From Gemmata massiliana (GTDB taxonomy: Bacteria; Planctomycetota; Planctomycetia; Gemmatales; Gemmataceae), in NCBI RefSeq assembly GCF_901538265.1, contig NZ_LR593886.1, forward strand, positions 1,984,001-2,048,000: 64,000 nt of DNA, in the 5' to 3' direction. Every line of letters starts with the position of its first letter. The first letter of the stretch is position 1. Under the pieces are notes generated by a model. The model did not search any database. It was given only the letters and a program-made list of their open reading frames with translations, and had not been told where the DNA came from. The translations under genes were made by a program, and so were the position numbers. Of the stretch, positions 23,961-33,760 are shown in pieces.

Positions 23961-25250
23961 ATGACTCGTTCCCTCGAACTGACCCGCCGCGGGTGGCTCA
24001 AGTCCGCGGCGCTCGGTATCGGTGCCGCGACCGGCTCGATGTCCGGCTGGCTGCGCGCGCTCGCGTCCGAGGCGCCCAAGAAACCCGCTAAGTCCGTTAT
24101 CGTGCTGTGGCTCAACGGCGGCCCGGCGACCATCGACATGTGGGATCTGAAGCCGGGGCACGAGAACGGCGGGCCGTTCAAGGAGATCAACACAACAGCG
24201 CCGGGGCTGAAGATCGGCGAGCACCTGCCGAAGCTCGCGAAACATGGCAAAGAGCTGGCGCCTGTGCGCTCGATGAAGACGAAGGAGGGCGATCACGAGC
24301 GCGCGGCTTTCCTGCTCCGTACCGGGTACACGCCGCAAGGCGCGATCCAGTTCCCGGCGGTTGGCGCGACGCTCGCGAAGGAACTCGGTTCGGAGTCCGC
24401 AGACTTACCAAATTTCGTGAGCGTCGCACCGGCCCGGTACGCCACCGCTCTCGGTGGCGGGTTCCTCGGGCCGCACTTCGATCCGCTATTCGTTGGCGAT
24501 CAAACGGCCCCACAAGACGGACTCAAAGTGCCCGATCTGGCCCGCGTGCCCGGCGTTACTGATGCGGCTCAAAAGGCCCGGCTCGAACTGCTCGCCGGAG
24601 TGGAGAACAAGTTCGGCGCGGGGCGCAACAGTCCGGTTGCCGCGAGCGTGCAAGCCGCAACGTCGCGTGCGGTACGGCTGATGAAGCCCGAAGCCGCGGC
24701 CGCGTTCGATCTCGACCAGGAGAAGCAAAAGACGCGCGAAACCTATGGTCGCGGACTGTTCGGGCAGGGGTGCCTGCTCGCGCGCCGGCTGGTGGAGCGC
24801 GGGGTGCCGTTCGTGGAGGTCACACTCGACGGGTGGGACACGCACCAGAACAACTTCGACCGCGTGAAGGAGTTGTGCGGCACGCTCGACGCGGGGTTCG
24901 CCTCTCTGGTCGGCGATCTCAAGGACCGCGGGCTGCTCGATAGCACGCTCGTGGTGTGCCAGGGCGAGTTCGGGCGCACGCCGAAGATCAACGCACAGAC
25001 GGGCCGCGACCACTGGCCCGCGTCGTGGGCGGTCGCGCTGGCGGGTGGCGGACTCAAAACGGGCCAAGCGATCGGGAAGACGACGAAAGACGGCCTCGCG
25101 GTCGAGGAACAGCCCGTATCGGTGCCGGACCTGATCGCGACCGTGGCGAAGGCCGTTGGGATCGATCCGCAGAAGCAGAACATGTCCAACGTCGGGCGCC
25201 CGATCCGCGTGGCCGACCCGGATGCGAAGCCGATCAAGGAGTTACTGTGA
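23961..25250 (+). CDS. DUF1501 (sulfatase-like) protein with Tat signal
   Basis: 429 residues. A twin-arginine type leader (TRRGWLKSAALGIGAATG) precedes a DUF1501 domain. Seen: VIVLWLNGGPATIDMWDLKPG, the family's opening strand, and LDGWDTHQNNF and GEFGRTPKINAQTGRDHWP later, which carry the putative metal or phospho-site residues of the alkaline-phosphatase-like fold. DUF1501 and DUF1549/1553 proteins are typically encoded together in planctomycetes. Its stop overlaps the next GTG by four bases. Probably exported folded; activity unknown. Confidence 0.9.
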   Translation: MTRSLELTRRGWLKSAALGIGAATGSMSGWLRALASEAPKKPAKSVIVLWLNGGPATIDMWDLKPGHENGGPFKEINTTAPGLKIGEHLPKLAKHGKELAPVRSMKTKEGDHERAAFLLRTGYTPQGAIQFPAVGATLAKELGSESADLPNFVSVAPARYATALGGGFLGPHFDPLFVGDQTAPQDGLKVPDLARVPGVTDAAQKARLELLAGVENKFGAGRNSPVAASVQAATSRAVRLMKPEAAAAFDLDQEKQKTRETYGRGLFGQGCLLARRLVERGVPFVEVTLDGWDTHQNNFDRVKELCGTLDAGFASLVGDLKDRGLLDSTLVVCQGEFGRTPKINAQTGRDHWPASWAVALAGGGLKTGQAIGKTTKDGLAVEEQPVSVPDLIATVAKAVGIDPQKQNMSNVGRPIRVADPDAKPIKELL

Positions 25251-26788
25251 CCCGCACGTTCCTCGCTCTCGTTGCGTTTGTTGCTGCGATCGCTGTAGTT
25301 CCGGCCGCGGATGCGCCCAAAGTCAGTCCGCGTGCCGAGGCTCTTGATTTGCTCCTGATCGGCGGGGAGAAATCCACGCGGCTCGAACTGCGTGTCGAAA
25401 TCGACGAAAAGTCGATCCCCGCGATCTGGGACGAGACGTTCGCGAAGTTGTTCGCGTTCTACGACCGCAACGCAGACGGTGCGCTCGACAAAGCCGAGGC
25501 CGCGCGCCTTCCAGCCGCGTTCGCGCTGCGCCAGGTGCTTTGGGGGCAGATCGCCGCACTTGTAGGTGACGCCCCCGCCTGGGGTGATCTCGATTTGAAC
25601 AACGACGGAAAAGTGGGCGCGGACGAACTGGCCGATTTCTACCGTCGTGCGGGGTTGGGTGGCGTGCTGGTGGGTGTGGGCAAACCGCCTGCGACCGACC
25701 GGCTCACCGAGGCGCTCGTCAAGGCTCTTGACGCGAACAAGAACGGCAAGGTGGAGGAGGCCGAGTGGAAGGCCGCGCCGGACGTGTTACGCAAACTCGA
25801 CAAGAACGACGACGAACTGATCGGGCCGGGCGAACTGGTCGATCGCATCGCCTACCCCGGTGCGCTGGGCTCCGCGCTTCTGATGGCGCCGACCCCGAAC
25901 ACCAAGCCGGGCGCGGTGACGGACGCACTGCCATTCGTCGTACTCCCGCTCCGCACGGCCGACACGCAGTGGGCGAGCACGGTCGCGGTTCGGCGCGAAG
26001 TGGGCAAACGCCCTGCGATCCCCACGGACAAGTTACTCGCGCTGCGTGCGAACCCGGCCGCGACCGCATGGCACGCGAAGTTCGGGAAGGGGGCCGTCGT
26101 AGAACCCGTTGGTGGGAAGCCGCCAGCAAATGGGCGACTGGTTTTGGCGGAGGGCAACCTTCGTGTCGAACTGCGTGCCGATGGAGGGAAGCTCGCCGAA
26201 CAGGTCGTCACTGCACGCAAACGCTTCCTGACGGCGTTCGCCGAATGTGACGCCGATTCCGATGGCGCACTCGACGCGAAGGAACTCGGAGCGACCAAGG
26301 CCGCGCGGTTCCAGCCGTTGCTTTTCGCCGACCGAAATGGCGACGGGAAACTCGACCAGAACGAACTAACCGCCTGGCTCGACCTTCAGGAGCAAATCGC
26401 AAAAGGTCACGTGTTCCTCACGGTTTTGGACCACGGCGCGGGGCTGTACGAACTGCTCGACGCGGACCGCGACGGCTCACTCTCGGTGCGCGAGTTGCGA
26501 ACCGCGTGGGACCGGCTCAAGGCGTCCGGGGGCGTGACCGACGGCGCGTTCGACCGGGCAAAACTTCCGCGTCACCTGATCGCGACCGTGAGCCACGGGC
26601 ACCCGCAGCACGCGATCGGTAAGCCGGTCCGCGGGGGACCGGAGTGGTTCCAGGCGATGGACCGCAACGGCGACGGCGATGTGTCTCCGCGCGAGTTCAC
26701 GGGCACGCGCGAGGTGTTCGATAAACTCGATCTCGATAAGGACGGGTTACTGAGTGCGGAGGAAGCGGCCCGCGTCACGAGGTTTTAG
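25247..26788 (+). CDS. Secreted protein with nine EF-hand loops
   Basis: 513 residues from a GTG that overlaps the DUF1501 stop (GTGA), with AAGGAG five bases upstream. After a signal peptide (LALVAFVAAIAVVPAADA) there are nine calcium-loop segments: DRNADGALDKAE, DLNNDGKVGADE, DANKNGKVEEAE, DKNDDELIGPGE, DADSDGALDAKE, DRNGDGKLDQNE, DADRDGSLSVRE, DRNGDGDVSPRE and DLDKDGLLSAEE. Most have the D-x-D/N-x-D-G pattern of working sites; the fourth has Glu for Gly. It is likely a periplasmic calcium-binding protein working with the DUF1501 protein, to which it is translationally coupled. Confidence 0.88.
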   Translation: MTRTFLALVAFVAAIAVVPAADAPKVSPRAEALDLLLIGGEKSTRLELRVEIDEKSIPAIWDETFAKLFAFYDRNADGALDKAEAARLPAAFALRQVLWGQIAALVGDAPAWGDLDLNNDGKVGADELADFYRRAGLGGVLVGVGKPPATDRLTEALVKALDANKNGKVEEAEWKAAPDVLRKLDKNDDELIGPGELVDRIAYPGALGSALLMAPTPNTKPGAVTDALPFVVLPLRTADTQWASTVAVRREVGKRPAIPTDKLLALRANPAATAWHAKFGKGAVVEPVGGKPPANGRLVLAEGNLRVELRADGGKLAEQVVTARKRFLTAFAECDADSDGALDAKELGATKAARFQPLLFADRNGDGKLDQNELTAWLDLQEQIAKGHVFLTVLDHGAGLYELLDADRDGSLSVRELRTAWDRLKASGGVTDGAFDRAKLPRHLIATVSHGHPQHAIGKPVRGGPEWFQAMDRNGDGDVSPREFTGTREVFDKLDLDKDGLLSAEEAARVTRF

Positions 26789-26989
26789 TATGGTCGCGCA
26801 ATATCGTGTCATTAAGGTTCAGGGTGGCGCCTTGCTGTAATTTGAGAGAAGATTAAGAACAGTGTGTCGTCACCAATGTTCGAGGTCTGTGCTTTTCTGT
26901 TCGCTCGCGCGTTAATTTGTTGTGGATCAGCGGCGTCCGGGCGTTAGACTCGTTACGAGTTTACCCCGCGACGAACCGTGTGACCGCCC

Positions 26990-28234
26990 ATGCCGAAGCC
27001 CAATCTCGGTACCCGTTTGGCCCAGGAACTGATCGCTTGCCGAACCGAGGGCGGCGATCATTACCCCATCCGCCTGGACCACCTCGCTGCTCGACTTGAT
27101 CCGGCTCTGGAACCGGCTGCCGTCTTGAAAGCCGTCGACAGTACGGCATTCAAGAAGCAGGCCGTCGTAACTGCAGATAAGCGAATAGACGCCCGCGTCG
27201 CGTTGCGCGAAGACGCTTCCCTGTTCGCCGCCGATCCGCTCACTTTGGAAATGGCTTTTCGGACGAAGGGTGAAACGGGTACTCCGCCCTGGTCGCCCTC
27301 AGAACTCGCCAAAACAGTGCCGACATCTTGGAGGCCAGCTTTTTCAGAGATTCTTGCGCGGCAAATCGCGTCGGACGAACTTCCGGCGTTTGCTGTCCAA
27401 GTCAAGGCGGGGAAGGGCGTCAAACTTCACCACAAGGAGCAACCACCGCCTCCACCGCCGGAAGTACAGGACGCGGAGCGATTGGTCGACATGCTCCGTC
27501 GCCGACAACCCGGTGTGCCGCTGGCTGAATTAGAAACTGCCGCGGAACTGAAGCCGGCTGCTTTCAAGAAGGCAGTGAAACGACCTGAGTTTACCGCGGC
27601 GGTCGTGCAGGTGAAGATGACGTCGAAGGACGTTTTCGTGGTTCCGAACGGAGATGCGTTTGGGCGGTTCGTGACCGGGACGTTGCTCACGCATTTGCTC
27701 GGAAAGTGTAAGCGGCCGAACGCGCACGCATTTCCGGTCAACGAACTGGTTGCGCACGTGAGTAAGGCAGACCAATCACAGATTACTGGCTTGCTGAATC
27801 GCCCTGATCTGGCTGCCGAACTGCCGGCCGGGGTCGGGTGCGTTCTCCTCGGTGGTGGCAAGAGCGGTAGTCAGAATGCTTTCTTCTTGCTCGAACACCT
27901 CCGCACCGCACAACCGGTCGCACGAAGTGTTGCCGCGCTCAACCAGGCGCCACCTCCTCCACCGGCCGATTTCGTTGCCACTTTCGACGCGGCGTTCGCC
28001 CGGATCGACCGGGAACGCGGATCGAACAACTTCGTCAGTCTCGTAGACCTGCGAGCGGCGCTCCCGGCCGTCCCACGCGAGACGTTCGACACCTGCTTGC
28101 GTCAGTTGCGCCGCGATCGGCGGTACGTGCTCAGTTCGGACGAGCGGTACGACGGCATCACCCCGGAGCAGCAGGCCGCGGCCATCCGGGAAGAAGGTGA
28201 ATTCCTGCTCCACGTGTCCCGAGGTCGGCCATGA
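26990..28234 (+). CDS. Multi-module winged-helix-like protein of the HerA locus (gene A)
   Basis: 414 residues, family not recognised. It looks like four helical modules separated by two proline runs (PPPPPP near residues 145-151 and 320-326). The modules share a pattern of short helix, LxxL turn, helix and strand typical of winged helices; for example ELETAAELKPAAFKKAVKRPEF, and the C-terminal LRAALPAVPRETFDTCLRQLRRDRRYVLSS. No enzyme motif is visible. The stop overlaps the next start by four bases (ATGA), so it is coupled to the ATPase. A DNA-binding or scaffolding role is inference. The 200-base gap upstream has a TAGACT at 26945-26950, a weak -10 candidate. Confidence 0.7.
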   Translation: MPKPNLGTRLAQELIACRTEGGDHYPIRLDHLAARLDPALEPAAVLKAVDSTAFKKQAVVTADKRIDARVALREDASLFAADPLTLEMAFRTKGETGTPPWSPSELAKTVPTSWRPAFSEILARQIASDELPAFAVQVKAGKGVKLHHKEQPPPPPPEVQDAERLVDMLRRRQPGVPLAELETAAELKPAAFKKAVKRPEFTAAVVQVKMTSKDVFVVPNGDAFGRFVTGTLLTHLLGKCKRPNAHAFPVNELVAHVSKADQSQITGLLNRPDLAAELPAGVGCVLLGGGKSGSQNAFFLLEHLRTAQPVARSVAALNQAPPPPPADFVATFDAAFARIDRERGSNNFVSLVDLRAALPAVPRETFDTCLRQLRRDRRYVLSSDERYDGITPEQQAAAIREEGEFLLHVSRGRP

Positions 28235-30420
28235 CATCGCCCGCCAGTACGACGACTCCCGCGACCGAGGCCCGGTCGCATCCGGTCGATAAGTTCCTGA
28301 ACACGCTCGCGCGCACGAACCCGTTCAGCCACCACCGCGTGACCGCGACCGGTGACCGGCCGGTCGATGTGCCGAGCATTCATGAAACCGAGTTCCGCGC
28401 GCTGGTCGCGCTGGCGGAACGGGCACACGACCAGAACGAAGCGGTCGGGGCGGTGGTGTGGGGCGAGTCCGGTTCGGGCAAGAGTAACCTGTTGCGGCGG
28501 CTCGGTGAATGGGCCGCGGGCGGGCGGGCGATACTGGTCAACTTTCTCGAACTCCAGGCTGCTCCGGACCGGCTCCACCGGGCTGTGCTGAATGCCGTCG
28601 TTAGTGCGCTCACCAACGGCATGACGGCCCCGTGGCACCGTACCCCGCTTTACGCGCTGCTCGAAGAACTGATTCGCCCGGCCGTCACCACCGGTAAGAA
28701 GAAACTCTCGCCGGCGGAACTGGATGCGGCGTTCCGGAAGCAAGTGGCCGGTCCGGTCGCACTTGTTGGGGCGCAACCGGCCGTTCGTGCGGCGGGCGAA
28801 CTGCTGCGGTGCTTCTTGAAGACGGCGATGCTGGAGCGGTCGCGTCAAGGCGACGGCGAAGCGGCAGGTGCGGCCGTCCGTCGATTGAGTGGTGACGGGT
28901 TGGACGAAGACGAAGCAAAGGCCGTCGGGCAGCGCCCGGCCGACGTCGAGAACCCGCTCGACGCGGCCGACAGTGCCGGGGTACTGGCGCTGCTGGCTCA
29001 GATCGCCCGCGCCGAGGGCAAACCACTCGTCATCTGTTTCGACCAGATCAACAATCTGCCGCGGCAACAGATCGCGGACGTGTCCCGTCTGCTCCACGAC
29101 TTAAATGATCGCTTGCGGAACACGCTCCTGGTTCTCTCCGAAGTGCAAGGCGAACTCGTTAAGTTGACAGAGGCAGGAGTCATTTCGCAGGCGACCTGGG
29201 ATCGCTTGTCTGCGAATAAGGTGGAATTGCAGCGTGTGATCGTGCCAAAGTGTCGGCGCATTCTTGAAGCGAGGTTGGAACAGTTCCTCGTACCGTTCGA
29301 GGGTGAGGAGGAAGTGAAACGGCACTACACAGAAGACGGTCTGTTCCCGCTCGGAGAAAACTGGTTCCGTGATCGATTCGGCAAGTCCGTCGACGTGCGC
29401 CCGCGCCACATGATCGACGCGGCCCGCGAGCAGTGGGAGGAGCTTCAGAAGTCACTCGTTGCGACACCGGACAAACGGAAGTGGCTCGACCGGTGGCCGA
29501 ACGTGGACCGCACCGTTAAAGAGCCCCGCAAGGTCGAAGAACTGATCGACGAAGAGGTGGGGAAGGCCGTAAGCGGGCGGATCACGCGGCACACGGCGAC
29601 TTCCAATGCACTTCCACCGAACGCCGACAACTTGTGTGGACTGACAGAAGCTCTACTTGCCGCGAGTGGGGTCGGGCTAGCCGTCAGTCGACCGAAACAC
29701 GGCTCCCCTTACGATTTGCTCGTGCGCGCGTCGCGACCTGGGGGCGGAGAGACGACGACCGGTCTCGTCTTCGTGGCGACCGGCAGTTCAAATAGTGTCA
29801 CGAGTGCGCTCGCCCGGCTCCTCGGTGACAAGAACACGCCCAATCAGGTTATTCTCGTTACCGATCAGCGGCTGCCACTCGCCTTCGGTCGGGCGACAAA
29901 GGCTCAAGGGCGCAACCACTACACCGCGCTGAAGACCGTGCCCGGGTTCGAGCACCTCGAACTGCCACTCACTGAATACGCCGCCCTCGAAGCACTCGAC
30001 ACTGTTTCCCGACAGGCACGCGACCTGGAGATTCGCCAGCCCGACGGATCGGCACGGGCGCTTCAGCGAGACGAGGTGATAGCTTCATACCGGCGCACCG
30101 GGCGATTCAAGACGCACCCGCTGCTCAGTCGGTTCATCGGGGACGCGCTGCCACCCGTTAAGGTGACCATCACCGATGTTGAGGTGCGCACATTCATTGA
30201 CGGGCGGCTCGCGATCACGATGGGAACCGACACCCAGGAGCTGGCCCGGCAGTTTCTCAACCAGCTTCCGCCCGACCGCCGGGTCGGGCTGGATGTGGCT
30301 GGTTGCCGAACACGGATCGAAGCGGTTGCGAAGGTGATGTCCGAGTCCAAAGACATCGCCATGACGAAGCTCCCCGACGGCTTCTTCTTGCTCCCGAAGC
30401 GCCGGCCCGCGACGCGCTAG
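28231..30420 (+). CDS. P-loop ATPase of the HerA locus (gene B)
   Basis: 729 residues. Walker A is GESGSGKS at 78-85. Walker B is probably LVICFDQINN, with Asp271 followed by Gln rather than Glu. It is preceded by a VPSIHETEFRALVAL helix and followed by sensor-like VLSEVQGE, as in ORC/Cdc6- or STAND-like ATPases. Residues 460-600 form a separate alpha/beta domain (GVGLAVSRPKHGSPYDLLV, GLVFVATGSSN, QVILVTDQ) that resembles a restriction-endonuclease-like fold with no obvious D...E-x-K, so it could be a pseudo-nuclease. The C-terminal end is another small domain. Not a named family to me. It is joined to gene A by ATGA overlap and to gene C by a 19-base gap. Confidence 0.82.
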   Translation: MTSPASTTTPATEARSHPVDKFLNTLARTNPFSHHRVTATGDRPVDVPSIHETEFRALVALAERAHDQNEAVGAVVWGESGSGKSNLLRRLGEWAAGGRAILVNFLELQAAPDRLHRAVLNAVVSALTNGMTAPWHRTPLYALLEELIRPAVTTGKKKLSPAELDAAFRKQVAGPVALVGAQPAVRAAGELLRCFLKTAMLERSRQGDGEAAGAAVRRLSGDGLDEDEAKAVGQRPADVENPLDAADSAGVLALLAQIARAEGKPLVICFDQINNLPRQQIADVSRLLHDLNDRLRNTLLVLSEVQGELVKLTEAGVISQATWDRLSANKVELQRVIVPKCRRILEARLEQFLVPFEGEEEVKRHYTEDGLFPLGENWFRDRFGKSVDVRPRHMIDAAREQWEELQKSLVATPDKRKWLDRWPNVDRTVKEPRKVEELIDEEVGKAVSGRITRHTATSNALPPNADNLCGLTEALLAASGVGLAVSRPKHGSPYDLLVRASRPGGGETTTGLVFVATGSSNSVTSALARLLGDKNTPNQVILVTDQRLPLAFGRATKAQGRNHYTALKTVPGFEHLELPLTEYAALEALDTVSRQARDLEIRQPDGSARALQRDEVIASYRRTGRFKTHPLLSRFIGDALPPVKVTITDVEVRTFIDGRLAITMGTDTQELARQFLNQLPPDRRVGLDVAGCRTRIEAVAKVMSESKDIAMTKLPDGFFLLPKRRPATR

Positions 30421-30439
30421 ACTTCCGCCCAGGTGCCCG

Positions 30440-32668
30440 ATGCCGCCCGTTCGCTTCAGCGCGTCGCAGGTGTGCGTGGCCGCGGCCTGTCCGCGCATCC
30501 TCTACTTCGATGCCGCCCGCGCCAGAGCCGACAACGCGGCGCGGCCTGCGGTCACCCGCATCTGGCGCCCGGGCGACGACACGGTTGCGGCCGGGGCGCT
30601 GTTCCACGCGGCTGCCGATGCCTTTCACCGCGAACACCGCCGACTGTTTGCGGCCAAGGAACTCGCCGCTCTGCTCACATCGAACGTGAACCGCGACGCA
30701 CTGGCCACCGCGCTGCTTAACGCCTTCTACTGGGAGTGCGTCGACCGCGAGGCGCTGGCCGCGAAGGACGGGGAGCAGCAGCGGGCGTTCATGGACGTGT
30801 TGCGGAATTACACCACCGAACTGGCCGACGTGCTGGCCCACGCGCTCGGTAGCGGGCGCCCGCCGGCCGAGGTGCTCGACGAACTGTTCGCCGACACCCG
30901 GCGCCGGGTGGACGTGACGTTCCCGGTCGGGCCGGCCGGCGAACCGGTTCACGTTACTGGCGTGCTCGACTACGTGTTCCACGACTGGCGGTCGGGGCGC
31001 GACCGCGTCCTCGATTACAAGCTGCTCCCACCGGCCGCGGCCGACAAGTTCCAGGTCGGCATCTATGCCCTGATGCACCACGTTCAGCACGGCACCCAAC
31101 CGTCGGCCGGGGTACTCTACCTGCACCCGCGGCGCGAACTGCACGAACTCTCCTGGGATGAGGTTCGCGGGAGTCGCGCGACCGTGTTCAACCTGCTGGC
31201 GTCGATGCGGGAGTGGGTCAAGTTTGATGAATCGACCGGCCGGGGATTGAAGCCACCCGGCAGCCCGGACGTGTGTTCGCGGTGCCGGTGGCGGCACGAG
31301 TGCTCGCGGCGGCTCGGTCCGGTGAACGAAGGCACGCGACTGACTCACTGGACGGACGCGAGCGCGGACCCGGTGCGGCTGGAAGTGCGCCCGCCGGTGG
31401 AAGACCCAGCTCCGGCCCCGCTTCCTGGCGGGCTCTGGCTCGGCCAGGTCAACCCCGGTATCCCGGCTACGGTGCCGCTGACGGCGCTTCCGACACACGT
31501 CGCGGTGGTCGGTGCGGCCGGGAGCGGGAAGACGTGGTTGGCGAAGGCGGTTGCGGAAGAGGCGGTGCTGGCCGGAGTCGCGGTGCTGGCGATCGATCCA
31601 CAGGGGGATCTCGTGCAGTTCCTTCGTCCGGCAGATCCGGCGAAGTTGCAGCCCGCCGAAATCGAGCGGGCTAGCCGGTTCCGGCAAACTGCGGACGTGC
31701 GCATCCTGACCCCTGGAACAGATCACGGCACGCGGGTTAGCCTGAATCCGCTGAAACTGTCCGCGGGCAGCGGGGAGGACGCCGACGACTTGCTGGCGAC
31801 GACCGCCGCGCATCTGGTCACTTTGGCGAAGGCGACCGGGGAGGTGGAGTCGCAGAAGACGTTCGTGTTCCAGTTGCTGCGTGCGCTCACACGCGGACCG
31901 GCGCGCGAGCTGACGTTGGGGGAAGTGGCGACCGCTCTCCGCGACCCGACCGCGGCCGGGTTAGACGACCCGGACCGGTTCGTGAAGAAGGCCGAGCGGG
32001 AGCGGCTGGCCCGGCAACTCAACAATCTGGAGCACGGTCCGGCGGCTCGATTGTTTACCGGTGGGCAACCGCTCGACCTGGGCCGGCTGGCGACGCCACC
32101 GGTGGAAGGTCGTGTACCACTGAGCGTAGTGTACCTGAACGCGCTCGCGGACGACGCCGAGAAACAGGGCTTCGTGGCGGCTTTGGCGGTCGAAGTGTAC
32201 CGGTGGATGATCGCGTCGGGCGGCTCGGCCGGTCGGCCGCGTTTGCTGTTCTACCTGGACGAAGCCCGCGACTATCTGCCGGCCGGGACCGCTCAACCGC
32301 CGGCCAAGAAGCCATTACTGCGCCTGTTCGCACAGGGGCGGAAGTACGGGGTCGCGTGTCTGGTGTGTACGCAGAGTCCGCGCTCGGTGGATTACAACGT
32401 GTTCAGCAATTGCAGCACGAAGTTGATCGGCCGTCTGGAGAGCGCTCAGGACGTGGACCGGGTGCGGGAGTGGTTCGCACCGCAAGGACCGCCTCCGGGG
32501 TGGCTGGGCGGTCGCGTGGGGGCCGCGCCGGGATCGTTCGTTGGCCGCTGGCCAGGGCAGCCGAGCGATACCGACGGCGTGGGCTTCCAGAGTCGCAAAC
32601 TGCTGACCGCGCACGAGGGAGCGTGGGCGCCCGATCGCGTAGCGACGGAAGTCGCGGCTGCTAAATGA
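30440..32668 (+). CDS. Cas4-like Fe-S nuclease fused to HerA-type translocase (gene C)
   Basis: 742 residues. N-terminal 300: a RecB/Cas4-type PD-(D/E)XK nuclease. Asp177 (GVLDY), Asp192-Tyr-Lys194 and Gln205-x3-Tyr209 are the catalytic and QxxxY motifs. Cys12 (or Cys17) with Cys279-x2-Cys282-x5-Cys288 matches the four-cysteine Fe-S cluster of Cas4 and AddB. C-terminal 440: a HerA/VirB4-class ATPase with Walker A GAAGSGKT (358-365), Walker B LLFYLDEARD (Asp607-Glu608), CTQSPRS and a possible arginine finger (KLIGRLES). All key residues are present, so both activities look functional. HerA usually works with a separate NurA nuclease on DNA ends; here they are one chain. Confidence 0.88.
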   Translation: MPPVRFSASQVCVAAACPRILYFDAARARADNAARPAVTRIWRPGDDTVAAGALFHAAADAFHREHRRLFAAKELAALLTSNVNRDALATALLNAFYWECVDREALAAKDGEQQRAFMDVLRNYTTELADVLAHALGSGRPPAEVLDELFADTRRRVDVTFPVGPAGEPVHVTGVLDYVFHDWRSGRDRVLDYKLLPPAAADKFQVGIYALMHHVQHGTQPSAGVLYLHPRRELHELSWDEVRGSRATVFNLLASMREWVKFDESTGRGLKPPGSPDVCSRCRWRHECSRRLGPVNEGTRLTHWTDASADPVRLEVRPPVEDPAPAPLPGGLWLGQVNPGIPATVPLTALPTHVAVVGAAGSGKTWLAKAVAEEAVLAGVAVLAIDPQGDLVQFLRPADPAKLQPAEIERASRFRQTADVRILTPGTDHGTRVSLNPLKLSAGSGEDADDLLATTAAHLVTLAKATGEVESQKTFVFQLLRALTRGPARELTLGEVATALRDPTAAGLDDPDRFVKKAERERLARQLNNLEHGPAARLFTGGQPLDLGRLATPPVEGRVPLSVVYLNALADDAEKQGFVAALAVEVYRWMIASGGSAGRPRLLFYLDEARDYLPAGTAQPPAKKPLLRLFAQGRKYGVACLVCTQSPRSVDYNVFSNCSTKLIGRLESAQDVDRVREWFAPQGPPPGWLGGRVGAAPGSFVGRWPGQPSDTDGVGFQSRKLLTAHEGAWAPDRVATEVAAAK

Positions 32669-32824
32669 CAATGTGCGAGTTTGAGCCAGTTCGATGAACA
32701 GTGCGTGATGTACTGCTACAACGTTGCCATGTCTGGGGCCGCAGGAGCTACTCCGAACCCAACTCTTCCTACTTTTGTCTGTAATCACTGTCTTCTGATC
32801 TCTGTTCTCTGCTCGGGAGGTGGT

Positions 32825-33760
32825 ATGTCCGAGGTCCGCGCCGACAATCTTCCGCCGAATTTCCTGATCCCGGTCGGGTCGCAGGTGGTGCTGCGCTACG
32901 ACCGGCGCGTTCCCAGTACAGACGTCATGAAGCCGGCGGGTACCGTGGGGGAAGTGGTGGAGGCGCCGGAGTCGAACGACCGGCCGTACCTCGTGCGGTT
33001 CCTGGACGGCGCGTCGTTTCGGCTGAAGTTCGGTGAGTTGCTCGTTCGGCGCGGGGACCACACCGTCGAAGCGACCGCGACCGCCGGGCCGGACGTGTCC
33101 GCGTTCGTGGTGTACCGGGTAATGGTGGGATCGCGCGCGTTCGGGCTGGCGACCGAGTCCTCCGACGAGGACCGCCGCGGCGTGTTCCTGCCGCCCGCCG
33201 ACTGGCACTGGGCGCTCACCAAGCCGCCCGAGCAGGTCGAGTTCTTTACGGAGGGCGTTGAGGAGGTCGATTGGGAGGTCGAGAAATTCGTGCGGCTCGC
33301 ACTTCAAGCGAACCCGAACATTCTCGAGGTGCTCTGGTCGCCCGCCGTGCTGCACATTGATGAAACGGGAACGGAGCTGCGCGAAATGCGCACCGCGTTC
33401 CTGTCGCGGCACCTGTACCGCACGTATTCGGGCTACGTTCTGTCGCAGTTTCGATTGATGAAGCGCGGGTTCGACACGAACCGGCACTACAAGCCGAAGC
33501 ACGCGATGCACCTGATCCGCCTCCTGCACAGCGGCATTCACGCGCTCCGCGAGGGCGACATCCGGGTGGACGTGGGCGAACACCGCGACGAGCTGCTCGC
33601 TATTCGACGCGGCGAAGTGCCGTTCGAGGCGGTGGAGGCTCGCGCGCTGGAGTTGGATCGCGTGTTTCAGGAGGCGTTCGCGAGTTCCCGGCTCCCGGAG
33701 AAGCCCGACACGGAGAGCGCGAACCGGTTCTTGATCGCCGCCCGGCGCCGGCGGGTTTAG
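32825..33760 (+). CDS. RlaP-like nucleotidyltransferase (polymerase-beta superfamily) with N-terminal extension
   Basis: 311 residues from the ATG at 32825, after GGGAGGTGG. From about residue 95 it matches the RlaP/COG3541 type: VGSRAFGLATESSDEDRRGVFL, with the G-S-R fingerprint at 102-104 and metal-binding Asp114 and Asp116. The helical part (LSRHLYRTYSGYVLSQ, KHAMHLIRLLHSG) follows. The first 90 residues are an added small beta-barrel-like domain (GTVGEVVEAPESNDRPYLVRFLDG), SH3-like. RlaP is associated with RNA repair in bacteria. It lies 156 bases after the HerA locus, same strand; association with that locus is possible but not shown. Confidence 0.82.
   Translation: MSEVRADNLPPNFLIPVGSQVVLRYDRRVPSTDVMKPAGTVGEVVEAPESNDRPYLVRFLDGASFRLKFGELLVRRGDHTVEATATAGPDVSAFVVYRVMVGSRAFGLATESSDEDRRGVFLPPADWHWALTKPPEQVEFFTEGVEEVDWEVEKFVRLALQANPNILEVLWSPAVLHIDETGTELREMRTAFLSRHLYRTYSGYVLSQFRLMKRGFDTNRHYKPKHAMHLIRLLHSGIHALREGDIRVDVGEHRDELLAIRRGEVPFEAVEARALELDRVFQEAFASSRLPEKPDTESANRFLIAARRRRV

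Follow-up and report, generated by a model that had tools for sequence, protein, structure and literature searches.

We have found in the planctomycete Gemmata massiliana a three-gene operon, here called ABC, which we are inclined to regard as a restriction machine against invading DNA, working like the Orc/Cdc6 branch of the predicted HerA/FtsK capture systems. The operon lies in a stretch of 64,000 nucleotides (the window, positions 1,984,001–2,048,000 of a genome formed by a single contig of 10.1 Mb; coordinates below are those of the window). Its three genes are located on the forward strand: A (26990–28234, 414 amino acids), read as a chain of winged-helix-like units, B (28231–30420, 729 amino acids), read as an Orc1/Cdc6-type ATPase, and C (30440–32668, 742 amino acids), an apparent fusion of a Cas4-type nuclease and a HerA motor. 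The architecture, the motifs and the operon itself are conserved, the distribution is patchy and moving, and A evolves fast.

Architecture of the three gene products

Genes A and B overlap in an ATGA (28231–28234), 19 bases separate B from C (30421–30439) and the operon holds no modification gene. We have counted 11 ABC loci in total, 10 of them with the order A-B-C as far as the contigs reach; at the eleventh (L077) the contig begins with C. An order and grouping kept at 10 loci out of 11 is more than chance. An initial annotation of this DNA had described three co-directional genes with this overlap and gap, and had proposed a modular, winged-helix-like A, an ORC/STAND-like B carrying an additional alpha/beta domain, and a C joining a Cas4-type Fe-S nuclease to a HerA-type motor. 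Its frames and coordinates are correct, and its domain reading and the catalytic residues that it singled out (Lys84 of B, Asp177 and Lys364 of C) are borne out below, with B sharpened to the Orc1/Cdc6 type by fold matches.

C appears to join a Cas4/RecB-type nuclease to a HerA motor, each of them intact-looking. Residues 1–300 (30440–31339) match PDDEXK_1 of Pfam (E 1.7e-12) and Cas4 of PADLOC (2.5e-6); residues 330–742 (31427–32665) match DUF87/HerA_C and HerA of the same collections, as well as HerA chains of solved structure, with E values reaching 1e-10. A set of cysteines with His, Asp and Asp-x-Lys motifs is typical of Cas4 and AddB. We aligned ten C sequences, leaving out the G006 copy, split across two contigs. 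Invariant in all ten rows were Cys17, Cys279, Cys282, Cys288, His56, Asp177, Asp192-x-Lys194, Gln205 and Tyr209 of the nuclease, as well as the Walker A of the motor (G358–T365, including Lys364), its Walker B (D607–E608), Arg634 and Gln645. Judging from motif position, Gln645 would be the sensor-1 glutamine and Arg634 the arginine finger.

In B we recognize a putative AAA+ module of Orc1/Cdc6 type (residues 20–425, 28288–29505) with a Walker A containing Lys84, a middle alpha/beta domain delimited by the order of elements in the predicted model (430–640, 29518–30150) and a C-terminal winged helix (646–726, 30166–30408). The Pfam matches are AAA_16, AAA_22 and BrxC_BrxD (2.9e-7). The model has a pLDDT (predicted local distance difference test) of 76.9, with parts of the AAA module at only 55–75. 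Fold comparison (VIA) of residues 25–425 gave the best matches to the Orc1/Cdc6 proteins 2qby_A (Z 11.3, root mean square deviation (rmsd) 19.4 across a longer range) and 1w5s_B (Z 10.9, rmsd 4.5, 248 residues aligned), followed by TnsC (Z 9.8) and BrxC (Z 8.9), while residues 646–726 match the winged helix 1cf7_B (Z 8.8, rmsd 2.6, 76 residues). With the whole of B, Foldseek found no match in the PDB at 1e-3 or better and ranked myosins at the top; a weak row, 8q3k_E (probability 0.87), which may be a chain of RPB5 type, was not used, its aligned range not being shown. Lys84 is invariant across two B alignments that together cover 10 different loci, and across the B sequences aligned from 10 loci the Walker B is Asp-Gln (D271–Q272), with Gln in the usual Glu position.

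The core of the middle domain (residues 465–545) is predicted as helix-strand-strand-strand-helix-strand, the order of elements of restriction nucleases, and we consider it a candidate for an inactive restriction-nuclease fold. The E-x-K motif is not present in the aligned middle-domain rows, and neither a Pfam nuclease match nor an independent fold match was obtained. Profile comparison with the equivalent region of the sister fusion described below was not significant.

The AF2 model of A (pLDDT 83.9, with a low-confidence linker at residues 306–322) can be read as five tandem winged-helix-like units, at residues 1–72, 73–148, 157–219, 222–300 and 326–411 from its helices and strands. The best fold matches, with high rmsd, are multi-winged-helix proteins (subunits of Pol III and the UFM1 ligase, SelB, ScpB and RepE). 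In the profile searches that the initial annotation had proposed, B and C match Pfam and PADLOC families and A matches none at E up to 1 in Pfam, PADLOC and NCBIfam. In hhalign comparisons unit 1 is similar to unit 3 (probability 96, E 3.5e-9) and unit 2 to unit 4 (probability 92, E 5.5e-7), so that one pair of units goes back to a duplication, unit 5 standing separate. The A proteins of G073 and L076 are shorter, with much of the first half missing.

Distribution, relocation and divergence of ABC

ABC is an accessory unit that is gained and lost, as follows from a synteny break after C, from the nesting of a Zavarzinella copy among those of Gemmata and from a fossil of C in another genome. 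Far from being universal, single-copy and always beside housekeeping genes, which the initial annotation had held to speak against a defence role, C is present in 6 of the 99 genomes searched, its own included (4 of 19 in the genus), though its neighbours in the window are ordinary. The carriers are G000, G009 (96% identity; Gemmata sp. IIL30, the closest carrier found), G005 (84%), G028 (Zavarzinella formosa, 76%), G073 (in two pieces, 53% and 43%) and G006 (split over two contigs). Matches to C were found in 66 of the 99 genomes, those of non-carriers being partial and mostly to the HerA region. The fossil, in G007 (L141:6815-7066), consists of two short pieces within ~0.25 kb that keep 74–80% DNA identity, the middle missing; neither A nor B was found on that 12.7-kb contig.

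B was found in 17 of the 99 genomes at E <= 1e-3, all six C carriers among them, and the B-like ATPases of G060, G053 and G054 have neither A nor C within the stretch examined. B-like Orc ATPases are located at L058:10184-12169, L061:9895-11958, L062:9861-12218 and L066:9639-10589 (partial), in stretches from which a HerA/Cas4 gene is absent; those of L058 and L066 adjoin genes with a nearly identical start, reductase-like by eye.

We scanned a collection of 84,980 species with two short peptide patterns, and the result is a lower bound: at least 8 loci, five of them new (L075–L079), and one in a Chromatiales bin. In counting loci, L072–L074, identical with L052–L054, were taken once and the near-identical L075 and L076 as two. 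In a tree of HerA domains, which included the HerA part of the G006 copy (labelled H), the C rows group together at 100/99, and the Zavarzinella copy pairs with that of G005 at 100/97, nested among the Gemmata rows; branches are long and joins between groups unsafe. The idea that C is a housekeeping HerA was rejected, the other HerA matches in relatives and in the phylum being different proteins. When 392 genomes of the phylum were compared with C at E <= 1e-60, 17 matched, and the Cas4 part was matched in its own genome only. Of 14 HerA regions examined there, 12 show a HerA-first protein of 711–968 amino acids and two are low-GC regions without a gene call. Four of these HerA-first proteins adjoin genes that by eye resemble a cytochrome-oxidase cluster, and two 17-kb stretches of one contig (G256:C180, L098 and L099) have mirrored gene calls, pointing either to an extensive inverted repeat or to an error of assembly.

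The window aligns with G009 in one piece across 24006–32696 with 91.8% identity. Here the homology of the G009 operon contig stops, to resume at 32804 on another G009 contig (breakpoint 32696–32804). Among genomes free of ABC, the left flank is conserved in G002, ending at 26745–26766, and the right flank in G012, G016, G002 and G001, starting at 32788–32837. Since these ends lie so close by, the variable unit is scarcely larger than the three genes. A simple empty insertion site could not be shown, the conserved left and right flanks being megabases apart in G002.

A has the lowest identity of the three genes, 84, 60 and 45% to G009, G005 and G028, compared with 97, 72 and 57% for B and 96, 84 and 76% for C. 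Between the window and G009, synonymous divergence (dS) is 1.489 in the hypervariable unit 2 (27206–27433), 0.626 in unit 3 and 0.123 in the conserved unit 5 (27965–28222, with 0 amino-acid changes), the reference values being 0.168 (B), 0.227 (C) and, in five control genes, 0.091–0.326. DNA identity follows the same course, with 67% at 27200–27399, 97% at 28000–28199 and 94–98% in most 200-base steps of B. The ratio of nonsynonymous to synonymous divergence (dN/dS) was 0.07 for B and 0.09 for C, indicating strong purifying selection. A maximum chi-squared (max-chi2) test on shuffled mismatches gave 0 of 500 shuffles reaching the observed value over the operon, and when the synonymous differences of unit 2 were set against those of B, with site numbers estimated, an approximate Fisher test gave 5e-16. 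Unit 2 has thus probably been exchanged through recombination between close relatives, the high synonymous divergence favouring import of a divergent segment over selection in place. In every unit of A, G009 is at least as close to the window as it is to G005, G006 or G028.

Known systems and a sister operon in planctomycetes

The initial annotation said that it knew no system uniting these domains, which is wrong at the level of the class. A 2024 paper (PMC10853773) predicts HerA/FtsK capture systems, a theme restated in PMC12839542. In one branch an Orc/CDC6 AAA+ ATPase, with an inactive nuclease inserted ahead of its C-terminal winged helix, is accompanied by an active nuclease, from two families of which one is also in AbiJ, and by a HerA/FtsK ATPase with a sensor-1 Gln and an arginine finger before strand 4. 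A subset has a fast-evolving protein of 2–4 winged helices, and related neighbourhoods are called mobile. ABC resembles that description in the Orc/CDC6-family ATPase and its winged helix (by the fold matches of B), in the inserted alpha/beta domain, whose nuclease nature in B is only a candidate, in the two HerA residues (Gln645 and Arg634), in a separate fast-evolving multi-winged-helix protein and in an active-looking nuclease, of PD-(D/E)XK type in C. It differs in this nuclease, which belongs to the Cas4 type, has four conserved cysteines and shares a chain with HerA, and in the five units of A against 2–4. The words Cas4 and planctomycet are absent from the main text of PMC10853773. As for mobility, we saw movement and loss of ABC; a Pfam scan of ten window proteins, from an EF-hand open reading frame and 9 of the 15 flank genes called, matched no mobile-element family. 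On the features described there, ABC fits among the HerA/FtsK capture systems of the Orc/Cdc6 branch, as a variant with an apparently different nuclease.

Other systems share parts of this design. DndFGH (DptFGH) has a multi-winged-helix subunit and a nuclease and HerA on one chain, as set out in PMC10853773. However, DndH is a protein of ~1700 amino acids with inactive helicase and methylase domains; A, B and C match no Dnd/Dpt family (DptF, DptG or DptH) in PADLOC and NCBIfam at E up to 1, weak DndH matches being seen for other HerA proteins only, and we rejected this identity. The HerA of C matches mad8 of MADS in PADLOC (7e-18). MADS is an eight-gene system that includes methylases, and with three genes only, a B weakly matching mad3 (0.0021) and mad8 (0.012) and an A without match, ABC was not assigned to it. 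BREX type 2, in which PglZ, PglX and BrxC accompany a BrxD ATPase, was discarded as well: B matches BrxC_BrxD, yet PglZ and methylases are unmatched among the ten window neighbours. The same holds for a CRISPR Cas4, Cas1/Cas2 being unmatched in those proteins (in G005 a Cas4-Cas1 gene is found ~6 kb from A). HerA-NurA, AddAB and Cas4 also combine a motor with a RecB-family nuclease, but in C the two are fused, accessory and linked to A and B.

The search with C revealed a second operon, in which an Orc-type ATPase is fused to HerA in one protein of ~1040–1115 amino acids, the Cas4 part being absent. The ATPase part corresponds to B (profile match probability 98.5–99.6) and has the Walker B Asp-Gln in all five fusions aligned. 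The gene order is X, a small A' and then the fusion (BC'). The end of A' in L068 resembles unit 5 of A (34% over 114 positions, E 1.8e-5); no blast match to A was obtained with other A' proteins. X was found beside 18 of the 20 fusions examined (L059, L063, L067, L070, L071, L127–L137, L139 and L140; missing at L068 and L138), and the 12 X proteins scanned all terminate in a DUF559-type nuclease domain. In G005 a distance of ~6 kb separates this operon, too, from Cas genes of type I-G. In G002 (L131:7556-11994) the fusion gene is in two pieces ~1.2 kb apart, interrupted or decayed. In the tree, the HerA of C has a nearer neighbour than the HerA of this sister operon.

Both operons place a small gene ahead of an Orc-type ATPase and a HerA. 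The sister operon is the commoner and is widespread in planctomycetes, and ABC looks like a variant of this common design: in place of the separate DUF559 nuclease it appears to have a Cas4-type one joined to a HerA from a different branch, its ATPase standing alone, whereas the sister has ATPase and HerA fused.

Neighbourhoods, proposed function and its rivals

In the window, the ten neighbours scanned gave DUF1549/1553, DUF1559, DUF1501, EF-hand, RlaP and DUF2617, with four matchless, and no PglZ, methylase or Cas1/Cas2. The EF-hand-rich reading frame (24956–26788) has a listed start that runs into the final part of the DUF1501 gene, and G002 and G009 both conserve its DNA.

The surroundings of G005 include a Cas4-Cas1g gene ~6 kb and a 675-amino-acid HerA ~3 kb from A; in G006 a DUF4011 helicase immediately 3' of C matches PDC-S37 of PADLOC at 9e-136. 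Clear defence genes are thus found at 2 of the 8 flanked loci among the matches listed, a suggestive association. The PADLOC scan covered 76 of 77 flank proteins (one short L052 protein left out; the flanks of the window and L052 are partly homologous) and a control set of 71 of 101 proteins from 7 of 10 control loci, the counts referring to the first 25 of 53 and 25 of 26 families, respectively. Kinases, mad3 and mad6 matched flanks and controls alike and were left uncounted, as was a mad2 match of 3e-5 in a neighbour at L079. In G005, the DNA that separates ABC from the Cas genes (L053:4097-7150) showed no CRISPR array. An ATPase of ~670 amino acids resembling HerA adjoins type I-G adaptation genes in four Gemmata genomes, G005 twice (G000:C1:3355093-3357051, that is L123:9094-11052, and L126, L125, L053 and L071), with Cas4-Cas1 at all five loci and Cas2 at four; the homologue of G012 (L124) is without such a Cas neighbour in the 19 kb examined.

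We infer the biochemistry, the target and the role in defence of ABC from these data. In the restriction reading, A would use its variable units 1–4 to bind features of DNA that is foreign or in transfer, the constant unit 5 joining it to the complex. B, whose fold comes from a model, would assemble on the DNA beside A and in its ATP state load or license C; its turnover may be slow and switch-like because the Walker B has Gln for Glu. C would form a HerA ring pumping duplex DNA, and its fused Fe-S exonuclease would degrade it, like a HerA-NurA or AddAB in one chain. Self DNA would presumably be spared through recognition by A and B, since the operon holds no modification gene. A possible, more tentative extension is a modification-free restriction in which exchangeable modules of A set the target: relatives would swap units, above all unit 2, keeping unit 5, B and C constant. 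By analogy with HsdS, these modules might act as target-recognition domains, with the Orc-type loader putting the same Cas4-HerA shredder on different invaders.

The anti-mobile-element reading agrees with a distribution that is patchy and relocating, with an A that evolves fast and has apparently been exchanged and with the two defence-associated neighbourhoods; the sister operon of similar design and the independent description of the class also count in its support. Several observations weigh against it. The window neighbours are ordinary, with no integrase or transposase among the ten scanned. In the comparison of defence islands suggested by the initial annotation, the 2 of 8 defence-flanked loci are no significant excess over controls, whose flanks also match PADLOC (an RtcR-type regulator at 2.2e-98, MkoA at 6.3e-34, kinases and mad3/mad6), matches that we judged generic. 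The Chromatiales copy, from a bin, pairs with a planctomycete at a weak 84/79 in the HerA tree, and the nuclease-like identity of the middle domain of B is based on predicted topology. With regard to exchange in A, the operon-wide max-chi2 peak is at 31490, inside C, the peak within A (27095) is reached by 17 of 1000 shuffles, and the dS outlier of unit 2 comes from a single genome pair. Finally, 103 pattern matches to C among 2.9 million viral contigs yielded none confirmed, B was not found in 50,697 phage records and plasmids hold no near-full-length match of C.

These last absences bear equally on the idea that ABC belongs to a mobile element, still active or since domesticated, with its ATPase, winged-helix protein and HerA serving DNA transfer or maintenance instead of restriction. 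B is also TnsC-like (Z 9.8), the unit moves and related neighbourhoods are termed mobile in PMC10853773; yet C retains a degradative nuclease and the window proteins scanned include no such family, four of them matching nothing, so that we regard this origin as quite improbable. A module for end resection and repair of the cell's own DNA, B loading C at broken ends for it to resect, was the alternative offered by the initial annotation. HerA with a RecB-family nuclease is a resection toolkit, and the intact motifs of C in all ten rows, the purifying selection on B and C and the ordinary neighbours of the window would suit it. It fits poorly with an operon that went undetected in 93 of the 99 genomes, that relocates, decays and crosses genera, and with an A that evolves too fast and unevenly, which makes repair an improbable function. 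An abortive response, in which sensing activates the nuclease to destroy host and invader DNA together, would agree with a switch-like ATPase with Gln in the Walker B and with the lack of a modification gene. It nevertheless seems unlikely, as nuclease and motor on one chain would better suit directional degradation of an invader, and no small-molecule sensor domain was recognized. The initial annotation was thus right about the domains of A, B and C, and its view that they form no described system gives way to the class of PMC10853773.

The HerA capture class has so far been predicted from genome comparison, and we found no experimental test of it or of ABC in the literature searched. What is new here is the Cas4-HerA fusion, and the sister operon with its DUF559 nuclease. 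ABC represents a compact version of three genes, with all the recognized catalytic motifs intact and with motor and nuclease on one chain, which makes it a practical subject for testing DNA restriction by HerA capture. The apparent exchange of modules in A offers, in addition, a testable idea of how targets may be chosen without a methylase.

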